A stretch of 64,000 nucleotides of DNA from Thermovirga lienii DSM 17291 (lineage in GTDB: Bacteria; Synergistota; Synergistia; Synergistales; Thermovirgaceae), in contig CP003096.1 of NCBI GenBank assembly GCA_000233775.1, positions 496,001 to 560,000 of the forward strand, given 5' to 3'. Of the stretch, positions 28,287 through 39,038 are shown piece by piece. The notes below the pieces were generated by a model. It was given only the letters and a program-made list of their open reading frames with translations, did not search any database and had not been told where the DNA came from. The first letter of the stretch is position 1. Every line of letters begins with the position of its first letter. The position numbers and the translations under genes were made by a program.

Positions 28287-28358
28287 TGACTAATTATTGT
28301 ATATAATCTGTAAATGTATATATGCATACAAAAACAAACAGGGGAGGAGTTTGAACAC

Positions 28359-29510
28359 ATGAAAGCAGTACAGTTGGGAGCAGGATTGGTTGGACAGCTT
28401 ATAGCGGCGGACCTTGCGAAGGATTTCGATGTAACGGTTGTTGATCTTAATGAAAAGGTCTTGAATGAGATAAGGGAGAAATATCCTTCGATCAAGACTG
28501 CTGTGGCATCGGCAACGGATGCCAAAGCTCTTGCGCCGATCCTTGAGGATGCGGACATCGTCACAGCTGGAGTTCCTGGAAAGTTCGGATTTGAGATGAT
28601 GAAGACGGTGATAAGCCTGGGTAAGAACCTTGTGGATATCTCTTTTATGGCAGAGGATTTTGAGGAATTGGACGATTTCGCGAAAGAAAAGGGAGTCACT
28701 GTTGTTCCCGATATAGGAGTTGCGCCTGGCATGTCCAATTTCCTTATGGGTAGAGGGGCAGCGTTATTGGACGAAGTAGAGGATGCCTATATCTTCGTGG
28801 GTGGGATTCCTACGAAGGAAGTTCCTCCTTTCAATTATCAGGTAACCTGGTCTCCTAAAGACTGCATTGAAGAGTTCACAAGGCCAGTAACCATAGTGAA
28901 AGATGGGCAAAAAATGGTTGTGGAGGCCACCTCAGGTCTTCATCTCAGGGAGTTTCCGGGAGTCGGGACCTTGGAAGCCTTCTATACCGACGGTTTAAGG
29001 AGCTTGGCCAAAAACATAAAGGCGAAGAACCTGGGAGAGATGACCCTGCGCTGGCCTGGACACGTGGAACAAATGAGGTTATTGAGGGCCATGGGCATGT
29101 TTGACGAAACTCCAAAGGTCCTGGGTGGCAAGGAGGTAATTCCCCTTGAGGTCACAGCTGACTTGCTCTTCCCACTTTGGAAGATGGAGCCCGAAAAGGG
29201 AGACAGAGATTTGACGGTAATGCAGGTGGATGTGCACGGCTACAAGGGGCGAGATGAGGTAACCTACAGCTGGTACCTCTTGGATTACTTCGATGAGGAG
29301 ACCTGGAACACATCCATGAGCCGATGCACTGGCAGTACATGTGCAATCTTTGCCCGGGCCGTTGCCGGTGGTCTTATAAAGGAAAAAGGTGTTCTTCCTG
29401 CAGAAAAGCTTGCCCATGACGATGATCTGTACAAGTTCGTTCTTGATGAGCAACTGAAACGCCGCATAAAATACACGGAATCGGTTAAGATAGTCAAAGA
29501 CGTCCGCTAA
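28359..29510 (+). CDS. Saccharopine dehydrogenase-family oxidoreductase (possible lysine 6-dehydrogenase)
   Basis: A 383-residue enzyme with an N-terminal Rossmann fold (QLGAGLVGQLIAADLAK, then acidic VVDLN) and the saccharopine dehydrogenase-type core DIGVAPGMSNFLMGR. Its length and single-domain layout match L-lysine 6-dehydrogenases and related lysine or carboxynorspermidine enzymes. The substrate cannot be read, but lysine catabolism would suit this organism. ATG 28359 follows GGGGAGGAG; the frame upstream of it is not protein-like. A TATAAT box at 28302-28307 lies upstream. Confidence 0.82.
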   Translation: MKAVQLGAGLVGQLIAADLAKDFDVTVVDLNEKVLNEIREKYPSIKTAVASATDAKALAPILEDADIVTAGVPGKFGFEMMKTVISLGKNLVDISFMAEDFEELDDFAKEKGVTVVPDIGVAPGMSNFLMGRGAALLDEVEDAYIFVGGIPTKEVPPFNYQVTWSPKDCIEEFTRPVTIVKDGQKMVVEATSGLHLREFPGVGTLEAFYTDGLRSLAKNIKAKNLGEMTLRWPGHVEQMRLLRAMGMFDETPKVLGGKEVIPLEVTADLLFPLWKMEPEKGDRDLTVMQVDVHGYKGRDEVTYSWYLLDYFDEETWNTSMSRCTGSTCAIFARAVAGGLIKEKGVLPAEKLAHDDDLYKFVLDEQLKRRIKYTESVKIVKDVR

Positions 29511-29538
29511 GCGAAAAGCATTCAGTTTGTGCTTGCAA

Positions 29539-29577
29539 GACAAGAGGGAAGCAAACCTTCCCTCTTGTCTTTTTTTA
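29539..29577 (+). terminator. Rho-independent terminator after the saccharopine dehydrogenase-like gene
   Basis: GACAAGAGGGAAG and CTTCCCTCTTGTC form a 13-bp stem around CAAAC (29539-29569), followed by seven T residues. The tail overlaps the end of the converging GH65 gene. Confidence 0.9.
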
Positions 29578-31986
29578 CAGTGCAAAGGATACTATCGTGT
29601 CTTTTCCGGCAGGCAGAGTCTTTCTTTGCCCCTTTACGGAGATCTCTATAGGTCCTGCAAAAGTGGGGAGGTCTTTTATCGTGAGGCAGGAAGGAGTGAT
29701 GGTTATGCTTAGTTCATGTCCTCTGTATCTAATGTGGAAGTGCAGTTTACCTAGTTCCTTGGGTAGTGAGGGGTCAAACCTCAGCATGTTGCCTCTGGCC
29801 TCAAGCCCTGTGTAGGCTCGCTGTAATATGTCTACGGTACCTGCCATGGCGCCGAGGTGGATACCTTCTGGAGTTGTGCCACCCTGTATATCTGCCACGT
29901 CGCTCTCCAGAGCCTCAGAGAACATCTTCCAAGATTCGTGGTTTTGAGAACTTACCAGCACCCAGGAGTGAACGACCCTGCTCAGGGTGGATCCGTGGGA
30001 TGTGCGGTGCATGTAATAATCTATGTTTCTGTTTTTTATGGTTTCGTCGAAGGGGTAACCGAGCTTCTCGAAAATTTCCTCAAGTTCCTTGTTGCTGAAT
30101 AGATAAAAAAGCATTAATACATCTGCTTGTTTTGAGACCTTATAGCGGTTTGTCGAGTCGCCCTCGGCTTCGAGTATGCGATCCAGCCTTTGGATATCAC
30201 CGTACCTTTTGCGGTACTCTTCCCATTGAAATTCCGCAAGCTTATCATATCCCTCAAACTGGCTTATTATCCCATCGTCATGGAAGATTATGGTCATTTT
30301 TCTTGAAAGCTCATCCCATAAACTTATCTCTCTATCGGAAATGTCTAGTTTTTCTCTCAGCCTTCTCAGGGCACTGCAGGGAATAATAGATGTCAGATCC
30401 ACTGCCCTGCTCCATATCCACGATGCCATTACGTTGGTATAGGCATTGTTGTTTAAGCCAGGTGTTTGTGACCAAGGATATGCATCGTGGTACTCGTCAG
30501 GTCCCATTACTCCATGGATTTCGTACCTGCCTGTTTTTTCGTTGAACAAGGTCATGCTTGCCCAGAACCTTGCTATTTCAAAAAACATTTCGGCTCCATA
30601 GGAACACATGAACTCCAAATCTCTAGTTATCTGAAAGTACTGCCATATGTTGTAGGCGATGGCGGCGTTCACATGCCTCTGCAAGTGGGAGTTGTCGGGA
30701 AGCCACCTTCCAGATTTTGGATTTAGATGAAGTTTCTGGGTCTCCTCCCTTCCGGAGCTTCCGCTCTGCCACGGATACATGGCTCCTTTGAATCCTGCTT
30801 CCTTCGCAGCCCTCTTTGCTGCGCCCAGGCGTCGGAAGCGATACATCAAAAGAGACCTGGTGATTTCAGGCATACGTAGGTTTAGGGTGGGGAATATGAA
30901 AATTTCGTCCCAAAACACGTGCCCTCTATAGGCTTCTCCATGCCAACCCCTGCTCGGTACCCCAACATCAAGATCTATGGTATGTGGGGAAGTGGTCTGA
31001 AGGAGGTGAAAGGTATATAGTCTGAGAATCCTGGCTATCCTGTCCCCTTGGCTAGGATCACTAGGGAAGAAGTCTATGTCAAACTGATTCCAAAGGTGTT
31101 TCCACGCTTTTGCATGGGGTTCCAGCAACTCTTCCAAAGAGCCTGCTTGAAGTAAAGCCTCCTCTGCCTGAAGGGCGCATTCGGATATGGCATTGTCCCT
31201 GGATGTAAACAGAGATACGATCTTTTCCAGTCTCAACTTTTGTCCTTTGGTCAGTTCTACCTCAAACTTTTGGCCTATGTAGCCTTTTTCCTTCAGAAGT
31301 GTTCTTTTAGGAAAAATTTCCTCGTTCCCTATGAAGGCTCTGGTTCTGGCTCCTTGGGCAATCCTTATTTCCGATTGATTGGTCTGCACCTTTAACAATA
31401 TAGAGTCATACCCTAGCTCTTTTTCCATCAACCCCTCCAGGTGCTTTTTGTTCAGCTGCAGGTAGCGCTTTACACCAGAGTTTGTGACCTTACCGTCGAG
31501 TGCCGAGAGGATTTCTATTTTCCCTGAGAAGTTTTCGGCCAATAGAGTGGTTTCCTGTGCTGCAAGGTGGGGGTTGGCCATGCTTACGATCCTTCGATTT
31601 TTAAGGACACATATCCTGCCTTGTTCGTCCTCGAACCTTACGGTGCGATGTAGAACTCCTCGGTATAGGTCCAATTTTTGACGGTAAAAGTGTAGCTTCA
31701 CTTTTGAAAGGTGGAACCAATCGGAACCCTCCATTTTGAACTTCAGGGGGAGCCAATTGGGTATGTTGACCAAGTCCTCGTTCTCCACGACCCTACCGGC
31801 TATTTCCGTTTTAAGCCTGTTATACCCCCCCGCAAGGTAGGTCCCAGGGTAGTGTACACCGTCCGCGTCGCTTTCAGCCGCTGCTCCGCGAGTGGCAAAA
31901 TAGCCATTTCCTAAGGTGCACAATGCTTCACGGAGTCCCTCTTTTTCAGGTTCGAAGCCGTCATATATGAAATTCCAGGAGCTCAT
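29575..31986 (-). CDS. Glycoside hydrolase family 65 disaccharide phosphorylase (probable trehalose phosphorylase)
   Basis: About 803 residues with the GH65 layout: N-terminal beta-sandwich, (alpha/alpha)6 barrel with the catalytic acid in GVMGPDEYHD (about Glu498), phosphate-binding HGSTLSRVVHSW near residue 660, and a C-terminal beta domain. GH65 phosphorylases split trehalose, maltose, kojibiose or nigerose with phosphate, giving beta-glucose 1-phosphate and glucose. The upstream gene makes trehalose from trehalose 6-phosphate and also converts beta-glucose 1-phosphate to glucose 6-phosphate, so trehalose is the likeliest substrate. ATG 31986 has the best ribosome spacing; ATG 31992 would overlap the upstream stop as ATGA. 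Confidence 0.88.
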   Translation of the reverse strand: MSSWNFIYDGFEPEKEGLREALCTLGNGYFATRGAAAESDADGVHYPGTYLAGGYNRLKTEIAGRVVENEDLVNIPNWLPLKFKMEGSDWFHLSKVKLHFYRQKLDLYRGVLHRTVRFEDEQGRICVLKNRRIVSMANPHLAAQETTLLAENFSGKIEILSALDGKVTNSGVKRYLQLNKKHLEGLMEKELGYDSILLKVQTNQSEIRIAQGARTRAFIGNEEIFPKRTLLKEKGYIGQKFEVELTKGQKLRLEKIVSLFTSRDNAISECALQAEEALLQAGSLEELLEPHAKAWKHLWNQFDIDFFPSDPSQGDRIARILRLYTFHLLQTTSPHTIDLDVGVPSRGWHGEAYRGHVFWDEIFIFPTLNLRMPEITRSLLMYRFRRLGAAKRAAKEAGFKGAMYPWQSGSSGREETQKLHLNPKSGRWLPDNSHLQRHVNAAIAYNIWQYFQITRDLEFMCSYGAEMFFEIARFWASMTLFNEKTGRYEIHGVMGPDEYHDAYPWSQTPGLNNNAYTNVMASWIWSRAVDLTSIIPCSALRRLREKLDISDREISLWDELSRKMTIIFHDDGIISQFEGYDKLAEFQWEEYRKRYGDIQRLDRILEAEGDSTNRYKVSKQADVLMLFYLFSNKELEEIFEKLGYPFDETIKNRNIDYYMHRTSHGSTLSRVVHSWVLVSSQNHESWKMFSEALESDVADIQGGTTPEGIHLGAMAGTVDILQRAYTGLEARGNMLRFDPSLPKELGKLHFHIRYRGHELSITITPSCLTIKDLPTFAGPIEISVKGQRKTLPAGKDTIVSFAL

Positions 31987-31988
31987 GG

Positions 31989-33581
31989 TCATCCCCTCCT
32001 TTCAAAAAGCTCTGCCAAGCCTTTGAGGTATTCCTCAACGCTTTCTGTATCCGGTAGTTTGTAAGAAGCAGCACTTTTTTCTTGATCCTTCCCTTTTGCG
32101 ACCACTATTCCTATTCCCCAGTCGATGAGGGCCTTGAATCCATCCTCGTCTGTTACGTCGTCTCCCACGTAAATGGGTAGGACGTTGTGTCTTGAAAAAC
32201 CTAGTGCCTCTACCAGCCATTCTATGGCCTTTCCCTTATCCCAATCCATATTAGGCCTTACCTCAAAAACCTTTTTGCCAATAGTCTTTTTCAGGGAGGG
32301 AAGGTCCTTTACCACTTGGTCCACGTGTTTCTCTATTTTTTCTATCATTTCTGACTTTACCAGCCTGAAGTGGACAGCGATGGAGTATTTCTTGCGCTCT
32401 AAGATGAGTCCATCTATGCCTTTGGTTCTTTCCCTCAGGGCCTTTTCAGCCTCGTTTAGCTCTGCAATGAATGCTTCTCCCTCCTTGAATGTCTTTTGAA
32501 GCTTTGTCGGACTTTCTATGTCGAAGCCATGGCTTCCGGCGTAAATTATTCCATCCACCTTGACCAACCTTTTGACGTCCTTGAGGTCCCTGCCGCTTAT
32601 TATCGCCAGTTGCGTCGTGTCCTTAAGCTTCTTGAGGGTTTTTCTGGTTTTTTCAGAAAGAATGGCAAGTTCAGGCCTTTCCACGATCGGAGTCAGCGTT
32701 CCGTCGTAATCCAGGGCCACAAAAGGTTCCTTGCCGAATAAAAGCTCCAGTTTTATGTGCCCTATGGCCTTGCGGGCATCTGGAAGGTCCTTTATGGGTA
32801 CGGTGGCGTCAGGTTTTTTACCGTCCACGGTAATTCTTGATAGATCGAAAGCCACCACATGGGCCCCTTTCTCCAGCAGAGCTGTTCCGTGGCCAGTTCG
32901 GTCCACGCCTACTACCATTCCGAAGTTTCCTCTTCTTCCTGCCTCTACTCCGGACTCGGCGTCCTCGAATATTATGCTTCTTGAGGGGGGCGCTTTTAGT
33001 TTTTGGGCGGCGTGCAGGAATAAATCAGGATGGGGCTTACCTTTTAAGCCGAGGCGCTCCAGCTCAACGCCGTCCGCGATGTAATCGAAAAGGCTCTCCA
33101 ACTTTGCCTTCTTCACGACCAATCTTGCGTTTTTGCTTGAAGTGACCAAGCCTATTTTTAGGTTCCTTCGTTTCATAAGCCCTATTAACGCCACTGCTCC
33201 CCTGTAGATGGGGACTCCCTCCTGTTCCAATACCTCTTGAAAGATCAAGTTCTTCAAGTTTCCCAAACCACATATGGTCTCCTTGCCCGGAGGATCAGAA
33301 GGAGTGCCATAGGGCAAGTTGATATCTCGGGACTCAAGAAAGCTTCTTACCCCCTCGTACCTGGGTTTCCCGTCCACGTATAGGCGGTAGTCTCTTGAGA
33401 TATCAAAGGGAGCATTATCCTTGTCTAGTTTTTCGAGGTATTGATCGAAGAGTTTCTTCCATGAGAGGGCATGTACCATGGCCGTTTGGGTTACGACGCC
33501 ATCCAGGTCGAACAAAACTGCGTCAAAATAGCGGCTTTCTATGTCTATGGGGGAATAGATTTCTTCTTCGTTCAGGTTCAT
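31989..33581 (-). CDS. Fused beta-phosphoglucomutase and trehalose-6-phosphate phosphatase
   Basis: A 530-residue two-domain HAD protein. Residues about 18-260 are a beta-phosphoglucomutase-type phosphatase/mutase: FDLDGVVT with Asp25 and Asp27, VTSSKN, and FEDAESGVEAG. Residues about 285-525 are a trehalose-6-phosphate phosphatase of the OtsB class: LDYDGTLTPI with Asp291 and Asp293, IISGRD, GSHGFDIE, and YVGDDVTDEDGF. The first half would convert beta-glucose 1-phosphate to glucose 6-phosphate, and the second would release trehalose from its phosphate. Both flank the reaction of the GH65 gene, which starts at its stop codon. ATG 33581 follows AAGGAGGGGG. Confidence 0.88.
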   Translation of the reverse strand: MNLNEEEIYSPIDIESRYFDAVLFDLDGVVTQTAMVHALSWKKLFDQYLEKLDKDNAPFDISRDYRLYVDGKPRYEGVRSFLESRDINLPYGTPSDPPGKETICGLGNLKNLIFQEVLEQEGVPIYRGAVALIGLMKRRNLKIGLVTSSKNARLVVKKAKLESLFDYIADGVELERLGLKGKPHPDLFLHAAQKLKAPPSRSIIFEDAESGVEAGRRGNFGMVVGVDRTGHGTALLEKGAHVVAFDLSRITVDGKKPDATVPIKDLPDARKAIGHIKLELLFGKEPFVALDYDGTLTPIVERPELAILSEKTRKTLKKLKDTTQLAIISGRDLKDVKRLVKVDGIIYAGSHGFDIESPTKLQKTFKEGEAFIAELNEAEKALRERTKGIDGLILERKKYSIAVHFRLVKSEMIEKIEKHVDQVVKDLPSLKKTIGKKVFEVRPNMDWDKGKAIEWLVEALGFSRHNVLPIYVGDDVTDEDGFKALIDWGIGIVVAKGKDQEKSAASYKLPDTESVEEYLKGLAELFERRG

Positions 33582-33705: not shown

Positions 33706-35511
33706 ATGGTAAGTTTCTTCAGGAGCATCAGGTCCAGGTTTATTGCCTTTCTTGTTCTGATAGTTGCTCTGTTTTTGGGGCTTCTTTTGGTGTTTACTTA
33801 TAGTTCCCTTAAAGATGCAGCCTTGAGAAATGCCAAAGAGCTTTCAAGGGCAGCAATGAGACAGACAAAAGGTAGCATCGACATCTTCTTTTCCGAGCTT
33901 GAGAGGTTGGCTAGGGCCTTGGCCAAGTACCCTGCCTTTAAAAACGTCGACACCACCGTCATGAGAGAGATCGTGCTGGCAGAGGTGGAAGCTAGGAAGG
34001 AATACCTAAGGGCGATTTATCTTGGAACGAAGGATGGCAAGATGTACGAGTGGGGCATAGGTCCAGGTTTTGTAAACAACAGTCCAATCTTTGAGCCTCA
34101 TTACGACCCCCGGGAAAGGCCCTGGTTCAAACGAGCTTTAGAAAAGGGAGAATTTTCTGTCTCGGATCCCTATCTTTATGCAAGCTTTCCAGCCTTGGGC
34201 ATAACCGCAGTGCTGCCGGTTTACGATGATTTGGGTGATTTTGTGGGTGTCTTGGGACTTGATATTCTCTTAGAGGACCTGCAAAAGATGGTAAAGAATT
34301 TCAAGATAGAGAAGAACGGAAAGGTTATTATTCTTAACAGGGATAATCATGTGATAGTAAGCCAGTTCGACGATGAAAAAGACGGAAAAAACACGAAGTT
34401 GGAGACTTTTGATCTTTTCAACATAGCTAACCTTGCAAATCATAAGGATAGCTACGTAGTAGAGTCTCATAAAATGGGCAAAAGATACTTGATAAGCACC
34501 ACAGAGGATCAACGTACAGGGTGGAAGATAATAGTTGCTCTGCCCTACGATGAAGTCATTTTGCCGGCTATAAGAAACATAAAAGGCATAATTGTGCTTG
34601 AGGTGCTGCTAACTATCTTTTTGGGGTTTGCTCTATTAGTGATGAGCAATAACATAATAATCCATCCCTTGAGAGACGCTATAGAGGTGATAGAGGCCAC
34701 TAAAGTTGGCGACGCGACAGTTAGAATGCCAGAGGATCGCAAAGATGAGTTTGGTGTCCTGGCTAGGGAGTTCAATAGACTCATAGAGGCGGTCAGAGAG
34801 TACCAGAGGGAACTGGAAGAGAAAGTTAAAGATAGGACCAAGAGAATCATAGAACTTCAAAAGGAAAATTTGAGGCTTAGACTTATAGAAGAGAAGGAAA
34901 GAATCTACGGTTACTTGCACGATTCCTTGGGCGCTAGGTTGACCAATATAAACATATCCAACGCAGTGGCGCAGAAGGTCGTGGATAAAGACAAAAAGAT
35001 GCTAAAAGATATGCTCCAGAGAATCGAGACCAATACTAGACTTGCCATTTCGGACCTTAGGGAGATACTCAAGGGATCTACCCTTGACAGTAGGCGGATG
35101 ATAGATTTTTGTAACGTCCTGCACGCCAACGTGAAAAGCAGGCTGGAGCTGAAGGACATAGAGCTTGAATGGCATTCAGAACTGGACCCTCTACAGGATG
35201 AAATTTGCCCCAAAGTGCGCTTGGAGTTTGAGAAAATTCTTCAAGAATTGACAAGCAATGTGCTTAAACACTCCGAGGCCAAGAACGTAAGGGTTTTCTT
35301 TTCATTGGACGAAGATAAGCTTAGGCTTGAATATTCGGATGACGGTGTAGGAGGAGCCTTAGTGGACCCAGAAAAGAAAGGCTATGGATTGGCAGGAATA
35401 GCAGAGAGGGTAAAGATGTTGGGAGGCGAGTTCAAGGTGAATTCCCCAAAGGGTGGAGGTACCAAGGTGGTAATTCTTTTACCTAACAGGGGGAGGAGAG
35501 AGGAATTATGA
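33706..35511 (+). CDS. Membrane sensor histidine kinase (NarL/LuxR-type, Cache sensor)
   Basis: A 601-residue kinase: helix 1 near residues 12-30, an extracytoplasmic double-Cache-like sensor (about 35-285) with the typical YDPRERPWFKRAL motif, helix 2 (about 287-310), a HAMP domain, a coiled coil, and a HisKA_3 dimerisation helix with phospho-acceptor His405 in YLHDSLGAR. The HATPase domain follows with ELTSNVLKHS and DDGVGG, then KGYGLAGIAERV. Cache sensors of this kind bind carboxylates or amino acids. The stop overlaps the regulator start (ATGA), and a DAACS symporter lies downstream, a likely target. Confidence 0.9.
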   Translation: MVSFFRSIRSRFIAFLVLIVALFLGLLLVFTYSSLKDAALRNAKELSRAAMRQTKGSIDIFFSELERLARALAKYPAFKNVDTTVMREIVLAEVEARKEYLRAIYLGTKDGKMYEWGIGPGFVNNSPIFEPHYDPRERPWFKRALEKGEFSVSDPYLYASFPALGITAVLPVYDDLGDFVGVLGLDILLEDLQKMVKNFKIEKNGKVIILNRDNHVIVSQFDDEKDGKNTKLETFDLFNIANLANHKDSYVVESHKMGKRYLISTTEDQRTGWKIIVALPYDEVILPAIRNIKGIIVLEVLLTIFLGFALLVMSNNIIIHPLRDAIEVIEATKVGDATVRMPEDRKDEFGVLAREFNRLIEAVREYQRELEEKVKDRTKRIIELQKENLRLRLIEEKERIYGYLHDSLGARLTNINISNAVAQKVVDKDKKMLKDMLQRIETNTRLAISDLREILKGSTLDSRRMIDFCNVLHANVKSRLELKDIELEWHSELDPLQDEICPKVRLEFEKILQELTSNVLKHSEAKNVRVFFSLDEDKLRLEYSDDGVGGALVDPEKKGYGLAGIAERVKMLGGEFKVNSPKGGGTKVVILLPNRGRREEL

Positions 35512-36146
35512 TAAAGGTCATGATATGTGAGGACATAAAGGAGGTAAGGGAGGGGCTTAAGTTCCTCCTCGAGATGGATGAAGAGATAGAAGTGGTGTCC
35601 ACCACAGGAAAGGCCGAAGAGCTTTTTTCTTCCATAGAGCAATATGGTCCCCCCGATGTGGTCTTGATGGATATCGGCCTGGAGGGGATGTCAGGTTTGG
35701 AAGCCACGTCCCTGCTCGTTGAGAAGTATCCTAAGGTAAAGGTTCTAATTCTCACCATATTTGAGGAGGAAGAGAAGATATTGAAAGCCATAGAAAACGG
35801 GGCCTCAGGCTACATTCTGAAGAACAGCCGGCCGGAAGAGCTTGTATTGCAGATAAAAGCGGTCCATGCAGGAGGCGCTCCGGTAAGCCCCTCGGTGGCG
35901 AAGGTGCTCCTTAAAGAGCTAAGAAAGGGGAGCACAACTTCGTGTAACGAATATCGTTTAACGAGCAGAGAGAAAGAGATAATGAAGGCTCTAATGGAAG
36001 GTTTGACCTACAGGGAGATAGCTCAAAAGTTCAATATTGCATCCTCGACAGTCAAAAAGCATATTTTGCACATATACAGGAAAATGGAGGTCTCAAACAA
36101 GGTTGAGTTCATGAAAAAAGCCATGGTCCTGAATTTGGACGAATAA
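35508..36146 (+). CDS. LuxR/NarL-family response regulator
   Basis: A 212-residue regulator: a receiver domain with the acidic pair near the N-terminus (ICED), phospho-acceptor Asp55 in VLMDIGLEG, a switch Thr in LILTIFE and Lys in YILKNS. The LuxR-type helix-turn-helix is LTSREKEIMKALMEGLTYREI followed by ASSTVKKHILHIYRKM. It is coupled by 4-bp overlap to the sensor kinase. The adjacent carboxylate/amino-acid symporter 160 bp downstream is its probable regulon member. Confidence 0.93.
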   Translation: MIKVMICEDIKEVREGLKFLLEMDEEIEVVSTTGKAEELFSSIEQYGPPDVVLMDIGLEGMSGLEATSLLVEKYPKVKVLILTIFEEEEKILKAIENGASGYILKNSRPEELVLQIKAVHAGGAPVSPSVAKVLLKELRKGSTTSCNEYRLTSREKEIMKALMEGLTYREIAQKFNIASSTVKKHILHIYRKMEVSNKVEFMKKAMVLNLDE

Positions 36147-37641: not shown

Positions 37642-39038
37642 GGTCAAGTCCTATATTTTGTGTAAATTTGTTTTGGTCTCTGGTAATGGTCTTATGCATT
37701 TTTCTTATTTTTTGTTAAAGGCAATAGATTTTAGGGCTTGATCTAGATTGCTGTTGTGAAAGATATTCATAGTACTCATCCATATCAAGGTACTTCCTTC
37801 CACCAGCCCACTTGTTGTCTATCTCAAGAAGAACTGCGCCAAGCAACCTTACTGCCGATTCCCTGCTTGGAAATATCCGTATAACCCTCTCCCTACGCCT
37901 TATCTCCTCATTCAATCTCTCCACACTGTTGGTCGTCCTCAGACGCTTACGATACTTCTCCGGCAAAGACAATATCGCCACAGCATCGTCAAATCCCTCT
38001 TCCAAAATCCTCATCGCCTTAGGAGCTTTTTCTTCGTATTCCTCTAAAACCCTCATCAACAACATCCTGGCTGTCCCCATATCCGGAGCATGCAAAATAG
38101 CCTGTATCCGAGTCTTGAGCTCCCCCTGAAGACCCTTAGGTGAAGCAGATAGTATGTTCCGTATAAAATGAGTTTGACACCTCTGCCAGCTTGACCCCTG
38201 AAAATTTCTCCTCAAAGCCTTTACTAATCCCTTGTGGTCGTCAGATACCACTAAATCCACACCTCTTAAACCTCTATCTTTCAACCAACCGAAAAAATCC
38301 CCCCAGCTCTCCTCTGATTCGCTATCTCCTACCACAAACCCCAAAACTTCTCGTATACCTTCTCTGTTCACACCCACACATATAAGCATGCTCCTATGTA
38401 AGACCCTGTTTTCTTCCCTCACCCTTATAACCAATGCATCTACAATCAAAAAAGGATACTCCTTGTCCTTCAAAGACCTATCTCTCCACGCTTCTATAAC
38501 TGGATCCAGCCTCCTGCATAATTCCGACACCAATGACTTGGATATCCTTACTCCACATAACTCCTCGGTTATCTCAGATACCTTACGGGTTGATACCCCA
38601 TTTACTACCATCTCCATCAAAGCCAAAATAAAGGCCTGTTCGCTCCTCTGATATCTGCTGAAAAGCTCCGTAGAAAACTTGCCATTACGAAGCCTGGGCA
38701 CCCTCAAAACAAGGCTCCCTACTCTCGTCGTAAGCCTGTGCGGGTATGTCCCGTTGCGATACCCTCGTCTTTCCTCTGTCCGCTCGTAAGCCTCTGCTCT
38801 CAACTGTTCCGTTGCCTGGGCTTGAAGAACTTGATTCAATACCGACTCCAATAACTTAGATACTCCAGAATCCTTACTGTCCGACAAAAATAACTGATGC
38901 AGTAATTCTGAGTCGATGGTAATATTGTACTGAGCCATTGCAAGGTCACCTCCGGTTTGGGTTTGTTTTTCCGCTTACCATTTTAAACCAGAGACCTTGC
39001 CTTGGCTCTTAATTTTACACAATTATATGGACACAACT
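37642..39038 (-). mobile_element. IS256-family insertion sequence, intact
   Basis: A 1397-bp element bounded by imperfect inverted repeats: GGTCAAGTCC...TTGTGTAAA at the left and, read inward from the right, AGTTGTGTCC...TTGTGTAAAA. A second inverted block, GGTCTCTGGT, lies further in at both ends. It carries one full-length transposase on the minus strand and is flanked by AGGCTTTG duplications. It sits inside the terminator of the symporter gene. Confidence 0.88.
37715..38938 (-). CDS. IS256/Mutator-family transposase
   Basis: A 407-residue transposase with the Mutator signature: Asp in FLIVDALVIRVREENRV, Asp in VDLVVSDDHKGLVKAL, the SSWQRCQTHFIRNIL motif with conserved Cys-x-x-His, and a late Glu in TTNSVERLNEEIRRRERVI. 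The frame is complete, with start ATG 38938 after CCGGAGGTGACC. The element may be active. Confidence 0.95.
   Translation of the reverse strand: MAQYNITIDSELLHQLFLSDSKDSGVSKLLESVLNQVLQAQATEQLRAEAYERTEERRGYRNGTYPHRLTTRVGSLVLRVPRLRNGKFSTELFSRYQRSEQAFILALMEMVVNGVSTRKVSEITEELCGVRISKSLVSELCRRLDPVIEAWRDRSLKDKEYPFLIVDALVIRVREENRVLHRSMLICVGVNREGIREVLGFVVGDSESEESWGDFFGWLKDRGLRGVDLVVSDDHKGLVKALRRNFQGSSWQRCQTHFIRNILSASPKGLQGELKTRIQAILHAPDMGTARMLLMRVLEEYEEKAPKAMRILEEGFDDAVAILSLPEKYRKRLRTTNSVERLNEEIRRRERVIRIFPSRESAVRLLGAVLLEIDNKWAGGRKYLDMDEYYEYLSQQQSRSSPKIYCL

Follow-up and report, generated by a model that had tools for sequence, protein, structure and literature searches.

Two adjacent genes of Thermovirga lienii DSM 17291, located in a window of 64,000 nucleotides of contig CP003096.1, are proposed to form a trehalose 6-phosphate (T6P) module with three activities, a β-phosphoglucomutase (b-PGM), an inverting T6P phosphorylase of family GH65 and a trehalose-6-phosphate phosphatase (TPP). 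We assign this reading, with a net flow most likely towards trehalose, a probability of roughly 0.58. In the proposed pathway, b-PGM would interconvert glucose 6-phosphate and β-glucose 1-phosphate, GH65 operating in reverse would condense β-glucose 1-phosphate with glucose 6-phosphate to T6P and phosphate in a reversible reaction, and TPP would cleave T6P to trehalose and phosphate. The sum would be the conversion of two glucose 6-phosphate to trehalose and two phosphates, without UDP-glucose. Since the TPP step is irreversible, the net flow would most likely be directed towards trehalose. The equilibrium of T6P phosphorolysis strongly favours T6P, while that of b-PGM favours glucose 6-phosphate about twentyfold; from these constants we estimate that millimolar T6P is attainable in the middle step with ordinary pools. 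GH65 phosphorylases are reversible (PMC8626586), and formation of T6P in the synthetic direction was demonstrated for the Caldithrix abyssi enzyme CaGP (PMC8537180).

The upstream gene encodes both b-PGM and TPP (Table 1), and the plus strand across the same interval is rich in stops. Residues 20-224 matched the b-PGM family TIGR02009 of NCBIfam with 166.9 bits (cut-off 153.35), while the score for the stricter b-PGM equivalog TIGR01990 lay below the cut-off (109.2 versus 189.4 bits). Residues 285-523 matched the trehalose-phosphatase family TIGR00685 with 164.1 bits (cut-off 68.05) as well as Pfam PF02358 (E 1.2e-51), so that Pfam and NCBIfam were in accord on the fusion. The claim of an earlier note on this DNA that one polypeptide joins b-PGM and TPP was thus borne out, both domains scoring above their family cut-offs within one 530-aa ORF. 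A chance ORF or a misassembly was ruled out by a 70%-identical fusion in a congener and by 80 further loci.

Table 1. Coordinates of the features of the two-gene operon within the window.
Feature	Position	Strand	Basis or remark
Fusion protein, b-PGM domain and TPP domain, 530 aa	31989..33581	minus	single unbroken ORF
b-PGM-type HAD domain, residues 20-224	32910..33524	minus	TIGR02009; conserved residues
TPP domain, residues 285-523	32013..32729	minus	TIGR00685, PF02358; DYDGTLTP, SGR, K449 and GDDxTDED present
GH65 enzyme, 805 aa (803 aa from ATG 31986), predicted T6P phosphorylase	29575..31992	minus	Pfam, fingerprint
Junction: AGGAGG, first ATG over the TGA of the fusion, second in-frame ATG	31984..32000	minus	
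Hairpin of 15 pairs, terminator-like	29537..29571		between GH65 3' end and convergent gene 28314-29510

In an alignment of 31 sequences, ten residues of the b-PGM domain (D25, D27, T33, H37, R74, K110, S149, K182, E206 and D207) and seven of the TPP domain (D291, D293, S329, K449, G473, D474 and D475) were invariant. By analogy with b-PGM of Lactococcus lactis, we take D25 and D27 to be the DxD nucleophile and acid/base pair, K182 the phosphate-site lysine and E206 and D207 the Mg-binding pair; for the motif residues of the TPP half, the roles known from HAD phosphatases were assumed. Judged by these residues, both halves look catalytically complete. The AlphaFold2 model of the whole fusion chain had a mean pLDDT of 91.1, and the best solved relatives are both from Mycobacterium tuberculosis, Rv3400 (8h5s) for the b-PGM half and OtsB2 (5gvx) for the TPP half.

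The GH65 gene lies directly downstream of the fusion, and in its product the three Pfam GH65 domains were all matched. At the first ATG (31992), the gene overlaps the TGA of the fusion (31991-31989) as ATGA. A second in-frame ATG at 31986 is positioned 8 nt past AGGAGG, which is the better spacing for a ribosome site, and corresponds to the start in several homologues. The true start may therefore lie 2 nt beyond the fusion stop, the overlap being nominal. Of the previously noted overlap of GH65 with the fusion stop, the adjacency of the genes and the overlap of the first ATG hold, while a start at 31986 would leave no overlap. The arrangement makes translational coupling of the fusion and GH65 likely. 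The AlphaFold2 model of GH65 had a pLDDT of 87.1 with weak loops at 353-358 and 410-423, the latter containing specificity residues.

The fusion, whose distribution had been left to be surveyed, proved to be widespread and not peculiar to the window genome. A scan of genome contigs yielded 543 stretches encoding relatives, of which the best 80 were used as the locus set, and all 80 carry the full two-domain fusion. GH65 is located downstream on the same strand in 75 of these best 80 loci and is missing there in five. Among the 75, it is a separate gene in 62, forms one ORF with the fusion in 10, lies in a frame that is open to the locus end in two and overlaps in one; the tripartite single chain of the OtsB1 type is absent from the window, which has two ORFs. 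Where separate, GH65 mostly touches the fusion or lies within 50 nt of it, exceptions being one locus in which the GH65 match is a fragment (L075) and one with 870 nt between the genes (L128). The gene pair was found under 14 phylum labels and on plasmids of Indioceanicola, Croceicoccus and Legionella. In Synergistota, 13 of 185 genomes matched and six carry the two-domain fusion, each adjoined by GH65, although one copy has an internal stop (G182) and one is cut by a contig end (G121). In a mirror test of fusion against GH65 over 62 rows, a correlation of r 0.78 was obtained and none of 2000 shuffles was as high; because both proteins follow the species, this shows co-inheritance and not more.

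Several loci depart from this arrangement. On a Rhodococcus plasmid (L052), TPP and GH65 form one chain, the first domain of which is degenerate. A plasmid of Nitrobacter hamburgensis (L053:5989-10028) encodes b-PGM fused straight to GH65, with TPP missing; the neighbouring genes are for a glucokinase and for a HAD-IIB phosphatase without TIGR00685 match. A similar b-PGM-GH65 fusion was found on a Corynebacterium marinum plasmid (L139) near phosphoketolase and aldolase genes. TPP, GH65 and polyphosphate kinase 2 follow in series, with no b-PGM domain, on a plasmid of Rubrobacter radiotolerans (L136:6133-10340). In one relative within Synergistota (L042/L008, genome G041), TPP alone stands just ahead of GH65 and the b-PGM domain is not in the chain.

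The substrate of GH65 was approached through the specificity positions defined by De Beul et al. 2021, whose fingerprints are TRIGPP for trehalose phosphorylase, EEAPxx for kojibiose phosphorylase and KV[MF]NES for maltose phosphorylase; DQGQDE is the fingerprint of CaGP, which was verified to form T6P (PMC8537180). With the CsKP sequence as numbering reference, the positions were compared across 76 related GH65 sequences. In the window enzyme these positions are D-Q-G-Q-(W or D)-E, which agrees with DQGQDE at five of the six. D64 is present in 72, Q392 in 76, G394 in 70, Q402 in 75 and E585 in 73 of the 76 sequences, and all five unambiguous residues occur together in 64 of them, the window enzyme included. 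The call at position 416 depends on the alignment, with W in 75 of 76 in multiple alignments and D in the pairwise alignment. As controls for the calling, CsKP gave EEAPWE, the kojibiose phosphorylase YcjT of Escherichia coli gave -EAPQS and a Lacticaseibacillus GH65 gave KV-N--, the beginning of the maltose motif. An identity as trehalose phosphorylase was rejected, as TRIGPP is absent and the window enzyme has DQGQ(W/D)E, and so was one as kojibiose or maltose phosphorylase, neither EEAPxx nor KV[MF]NES being present. Five basic residues (R356, R388, H422, R439 and R602, window numbering) are shared by 73-76 of the 76 sequences and absent from all four GH65s of other types, which makes them candidate holders of the 6-phosphate. 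GH65 is thus probably a T6P phosphorylase, and with this fingerprint TPP and GH65 probably share T6P.

If GH65 makes T6P, its hosts would need no OtsA. Therefore, GT20 (PF00982) was sought in the genomes belonging to 78 loci; the remaining two of the 80 match Synergistota genomes, which were searched separately and have GT20. It was undetected in 18 of 50 and 5 of 28 fusion genomes, so that in total, for the best 80 of 543 loci, 23 genomes showed no GT20 and 57 had it; the genomes without it are mostly MAGs, in which a gene can seem absent owing to a gap. Among the first 18 of them are two named isolates (Pseudomonas saliphila and Thiohalocapsa halophila) and one chromosome-level Binatia record. 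On a tree of 62 rows the GT20-less state requires at least 12 changes and is therefore not confined to one odd clade. All of these first 18 genomes contain TPP, as a single copy in 17 and as two copies of fusion size in G198, and all contain this GH65, though not always next to the fusion; in T. halophila (L102, genome G218) the two lie at separate sites. PTS EIIC was undetected in 17 of the 18 (G221 has one) and GH37 trehalase in 15. GH65 was missing from two of 50 genomes, both with GT20, which is too few to mean much. In 16 of 55 GT20-bearing genomes, GT20 is part of an open frame 725-836 aa long, which is the length of a TPS-TPP fusion; such genomes may therefore come with their own phosphatase. 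Bacterial TPS and TPP genes are generally clustered according to a 2006 survey (PMC1769515), whereas GT20 occurs near the fusion in few loci. These results suggest that reversed GH65 is the only T6P source that could be named in GT20-less fusion genomes, in which the module would be self-sufficient.

The window genome itself (2.0 Mb, completeness 99.96) is of the other kind. The earlier note had proposed to look for otsA elsewhere, and one GT20 T6P synthase was found about 85 kb from the window start; it resembles OtsA more closely than it does glucosylglycerol-phosphate synthase, with a score of 540.8 that lies below the OtsA cut-off of 564.85. Besides the fused TPP, no other was detected in the genome, so that OtsA, if functional there, has to rely on this TPP too; the TPP probably does have this second role. 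The lack of trehalase and trehalose synthase, noted for the operon, was confirmed and extends further, as no GH13, no GH37 trehalase and no PTS EIIC were detected genome-wide. TreS, TreY, TreZ and TreC are GH13 enzymes, and therefore none of them is expected in this genome. Here TPP would also complete the OtsA route, and b-PGM with GH65 would provide a second T6P supply free of nucleotide sugar, or an overflow. It counts against the module reading that the genome's own GT20 already explains TPP without GH65.

To describe the surroundings of the operon, we scanned the closest same-strand neighbours on either side (91 of 139) and considered the top 25 of the 124 families; no transporter or glucokinase family among these was matched by more than three of the 91. 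A sugar-uptake operon is thus unsupported, and the lack of recurrent transporters and glucokinases agrees better with a synthetic role in the cytosol than with the uptake of sugar. The interval 33706-36146 (plus strand), divergent from the fusion, encodes a sensor kinase of the dCache/HAMP type together with a LuxR-type response regulator. They were dismissed as a conserved two-component regulator of the operon, as the kinase is kept in the congener (L003) but relatives at the level of the order (L040 and L041) have other neighbours. A 407-aa ORF at 37715-38938 (minus strand) resembles, as judged by eye, a mutator-type transposase.

Three other explanations have to be weighed. The module might serve breakdown, with GH65 phosphorolysing T6P, b-PGM feeding β-glucose 1-phosphate into glycolysis and TPP freeing trehalose on demand, the level of OtsA-made T6P being set in this way. 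T6P phosphorylase of L. lactis acts with b-PGM in trehalose use according to reviews, and a GT20 able to make T6P is present in the window genome and in the 57 fusion genomes; hosts with OtsA, the window genome among them, are where this explanation is strongest above all. However, the 23 genomes without detectable GT20, of which 17 of the 18 tested also lacked detectable PTS EIIC, would have no apparent T6P to degrade, and T6P degradation would face competition from a TPP fused to b-PGM, so that we consider breakdown unlikely overall. The earlier note had taken GH65 for a trehalose phosphorylase and the steps of the fusion for those on both sides of trehalose phosphorolysis, trehalose being made from OtsA-derived T6P and recovered as β-glucose 1-phosphate and glucose. 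A normal partner of inverting trehalose phosphorylases is b-PGM, as stated in a review, and the fusion holds the only TPP of a genome that has OtsA. This assignment is nevertheless probably wrong, and the explanation built on it is improbable: the fingerprint is DQGQ-E, the T6P-phosphorylase type, and not TRIGPP, TPP would have no substrate in GT20-less genomes, and no glucokinase that could take up the released glucose recurs by the operon among the top 25 of 124 neighbour families. The suggested synthesis of trehalose by this gene set is strengthened by the fusion genomes without detectable GT20.

A similarly small chance is given to GH65 being a T6P hydrolase or using another 6-phosphorylated acceptor, which TPP would dephosphorylate in GT20-less genomes. 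The closest fold to the GH65 model, and the closest solved GH65, is 9lb6 from Weissella ceti (Z 43.2), deposited as 'trehalose-6-phosphate hydrolase'. The deposited names of 9lb6/9lb7 conflict, the second being 'trehalose 6-phosphate phosphatase', and 9lb6 is therefore not usable as a functional anchor; no paper on this structure was found. The fingerprint of the Weissella protein is that of T6P phosphorylase at five of six positions. Also in favour of a deviating activity, E709 is invariant in the 76 sequences and is not a glutamate in four other GH65s, but maltose phosphorylase 1h54 has an acidic residue in the same column. The phosphate site of GH65 phosphorylases consists of two Ser, His and Lys, and a described GH65 hydrolase has lost phosphate-site residues (PMC8626586). 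The window enzyme has S668, T669, H712 and R348 and retains the general acid E500; compared with the described site, the basic residue is Arg and the second Ser is Thr, the latter exchange being found in 62 of the 76 sequences. The exchange to Thr might speak for a hydrolase, whereas the retained Ser, His and basic residue, together with the match of the verified T6P phosphorylase CaGP at five of six positions (PMC8537180), argue against it.

The T6P module with net flow to trehalose remains the preferred reading; it builds on the domains, residues, gene order and distribution shown above and on the genomes without detected GT20, from which substrate, direction and physiological role are deduced. 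A further-reaching version is advanced more tentatively, at slightly less than even odds: the operon would be a complete natural trehalose pathway under 14 phylum labels, with b-PGM and reversed GH65 supplying T6P from glucose 6-phosphate without UDP-glucose and TPP pulling; it would be the only visible T6P route in the 23 of 80 hosts, and its one-chain form would explain large proteins of the OtsB1 type. If this holds, trehalose synthesis in many anaerobes, nitrite oxidisers, sulphur bacteria and others would follow a cheaper route, masked in annotation by the labels 'otsB' and 'glycosyl hydrolase family 65'. To conclude from a genome without OtsA that such an organism lacks trehalose synthesis would then be wrong. 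It would also provide a testable function for OtsB1 of M. tuberculosis, which was described as not yet biochemically characterised in a 2025 paper (PMC12090744) and as of unknown function in a 2024 review (PMC11046441). In the open-access literature, covered by titles and abstract openings and with most subscription journals outside the scope, no paper was found that describes a fusion of b-PGM with TPP or a natural synthesis of trehalose through T6P phosphorylase and TPP. The proposed route is absent from the trehalose routes given in the accessible parts of reviews, and a 2025 review, in its accessible part, gives T6P phosphorylase only as a route of T6P degradation (PMC12125463).

Among known systems, TrePP of L. 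lactis (EC 2.4.1.216) and CaGP likewise belong to GH65, and CaGP shares five of six fingerprint positions with the window enzyme. TrePP acts in trehalose breakdown with PTS import and is not known to have a TPP partner. It works with b-PGM, as proposed here, while the window differs in that TPP is fused to b-PGM; the role of the L. lactis enzyme in breakdown is given in the title of a paper and in reviews. In OtsA-OtsB and TPS-TPP fusions, T6P is likewise dephosphorylated by a TPP of the TIGR00685 type, but it derives from GT20 and a nucleotide sugar, and 23 of the 80 fusion genomes had no detected GT20. In OtsB2 of M. tuberculosis (5gvx), TPP is combined with an N-terminal HAD-like domain, and the protein aligns with fusion residues 186-523; the N-terminal domain is shorter than that of the fusion, and at its start the b-PGM catalytic motif is not matched. 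OtsB1 (Rv2006, 1327 aa), a large protein resembling TPP, has a length compatible with b-PGM-like, TPP and GH65 parts in one chain, which we take to be its domain make-up. In the window, by comparison, GH65 is a protein of its own and the fusion has a complete b-PGM domain, and OtsB1 may be a one-chain form of the module. Every kind of enzyme in the module is already known, and it is the natural pathway that we infer. Carvalho et al. in 2011 reportedly engineered L. lactis with trePP, pgmB and otsB for a pathway from glucose 6-phosphate to trehalose. Their study is cited in PMC3918152. The engineered pathway comprises the same three activities but is man-made, whereas in the window they would lie in a natural two-gene operon.
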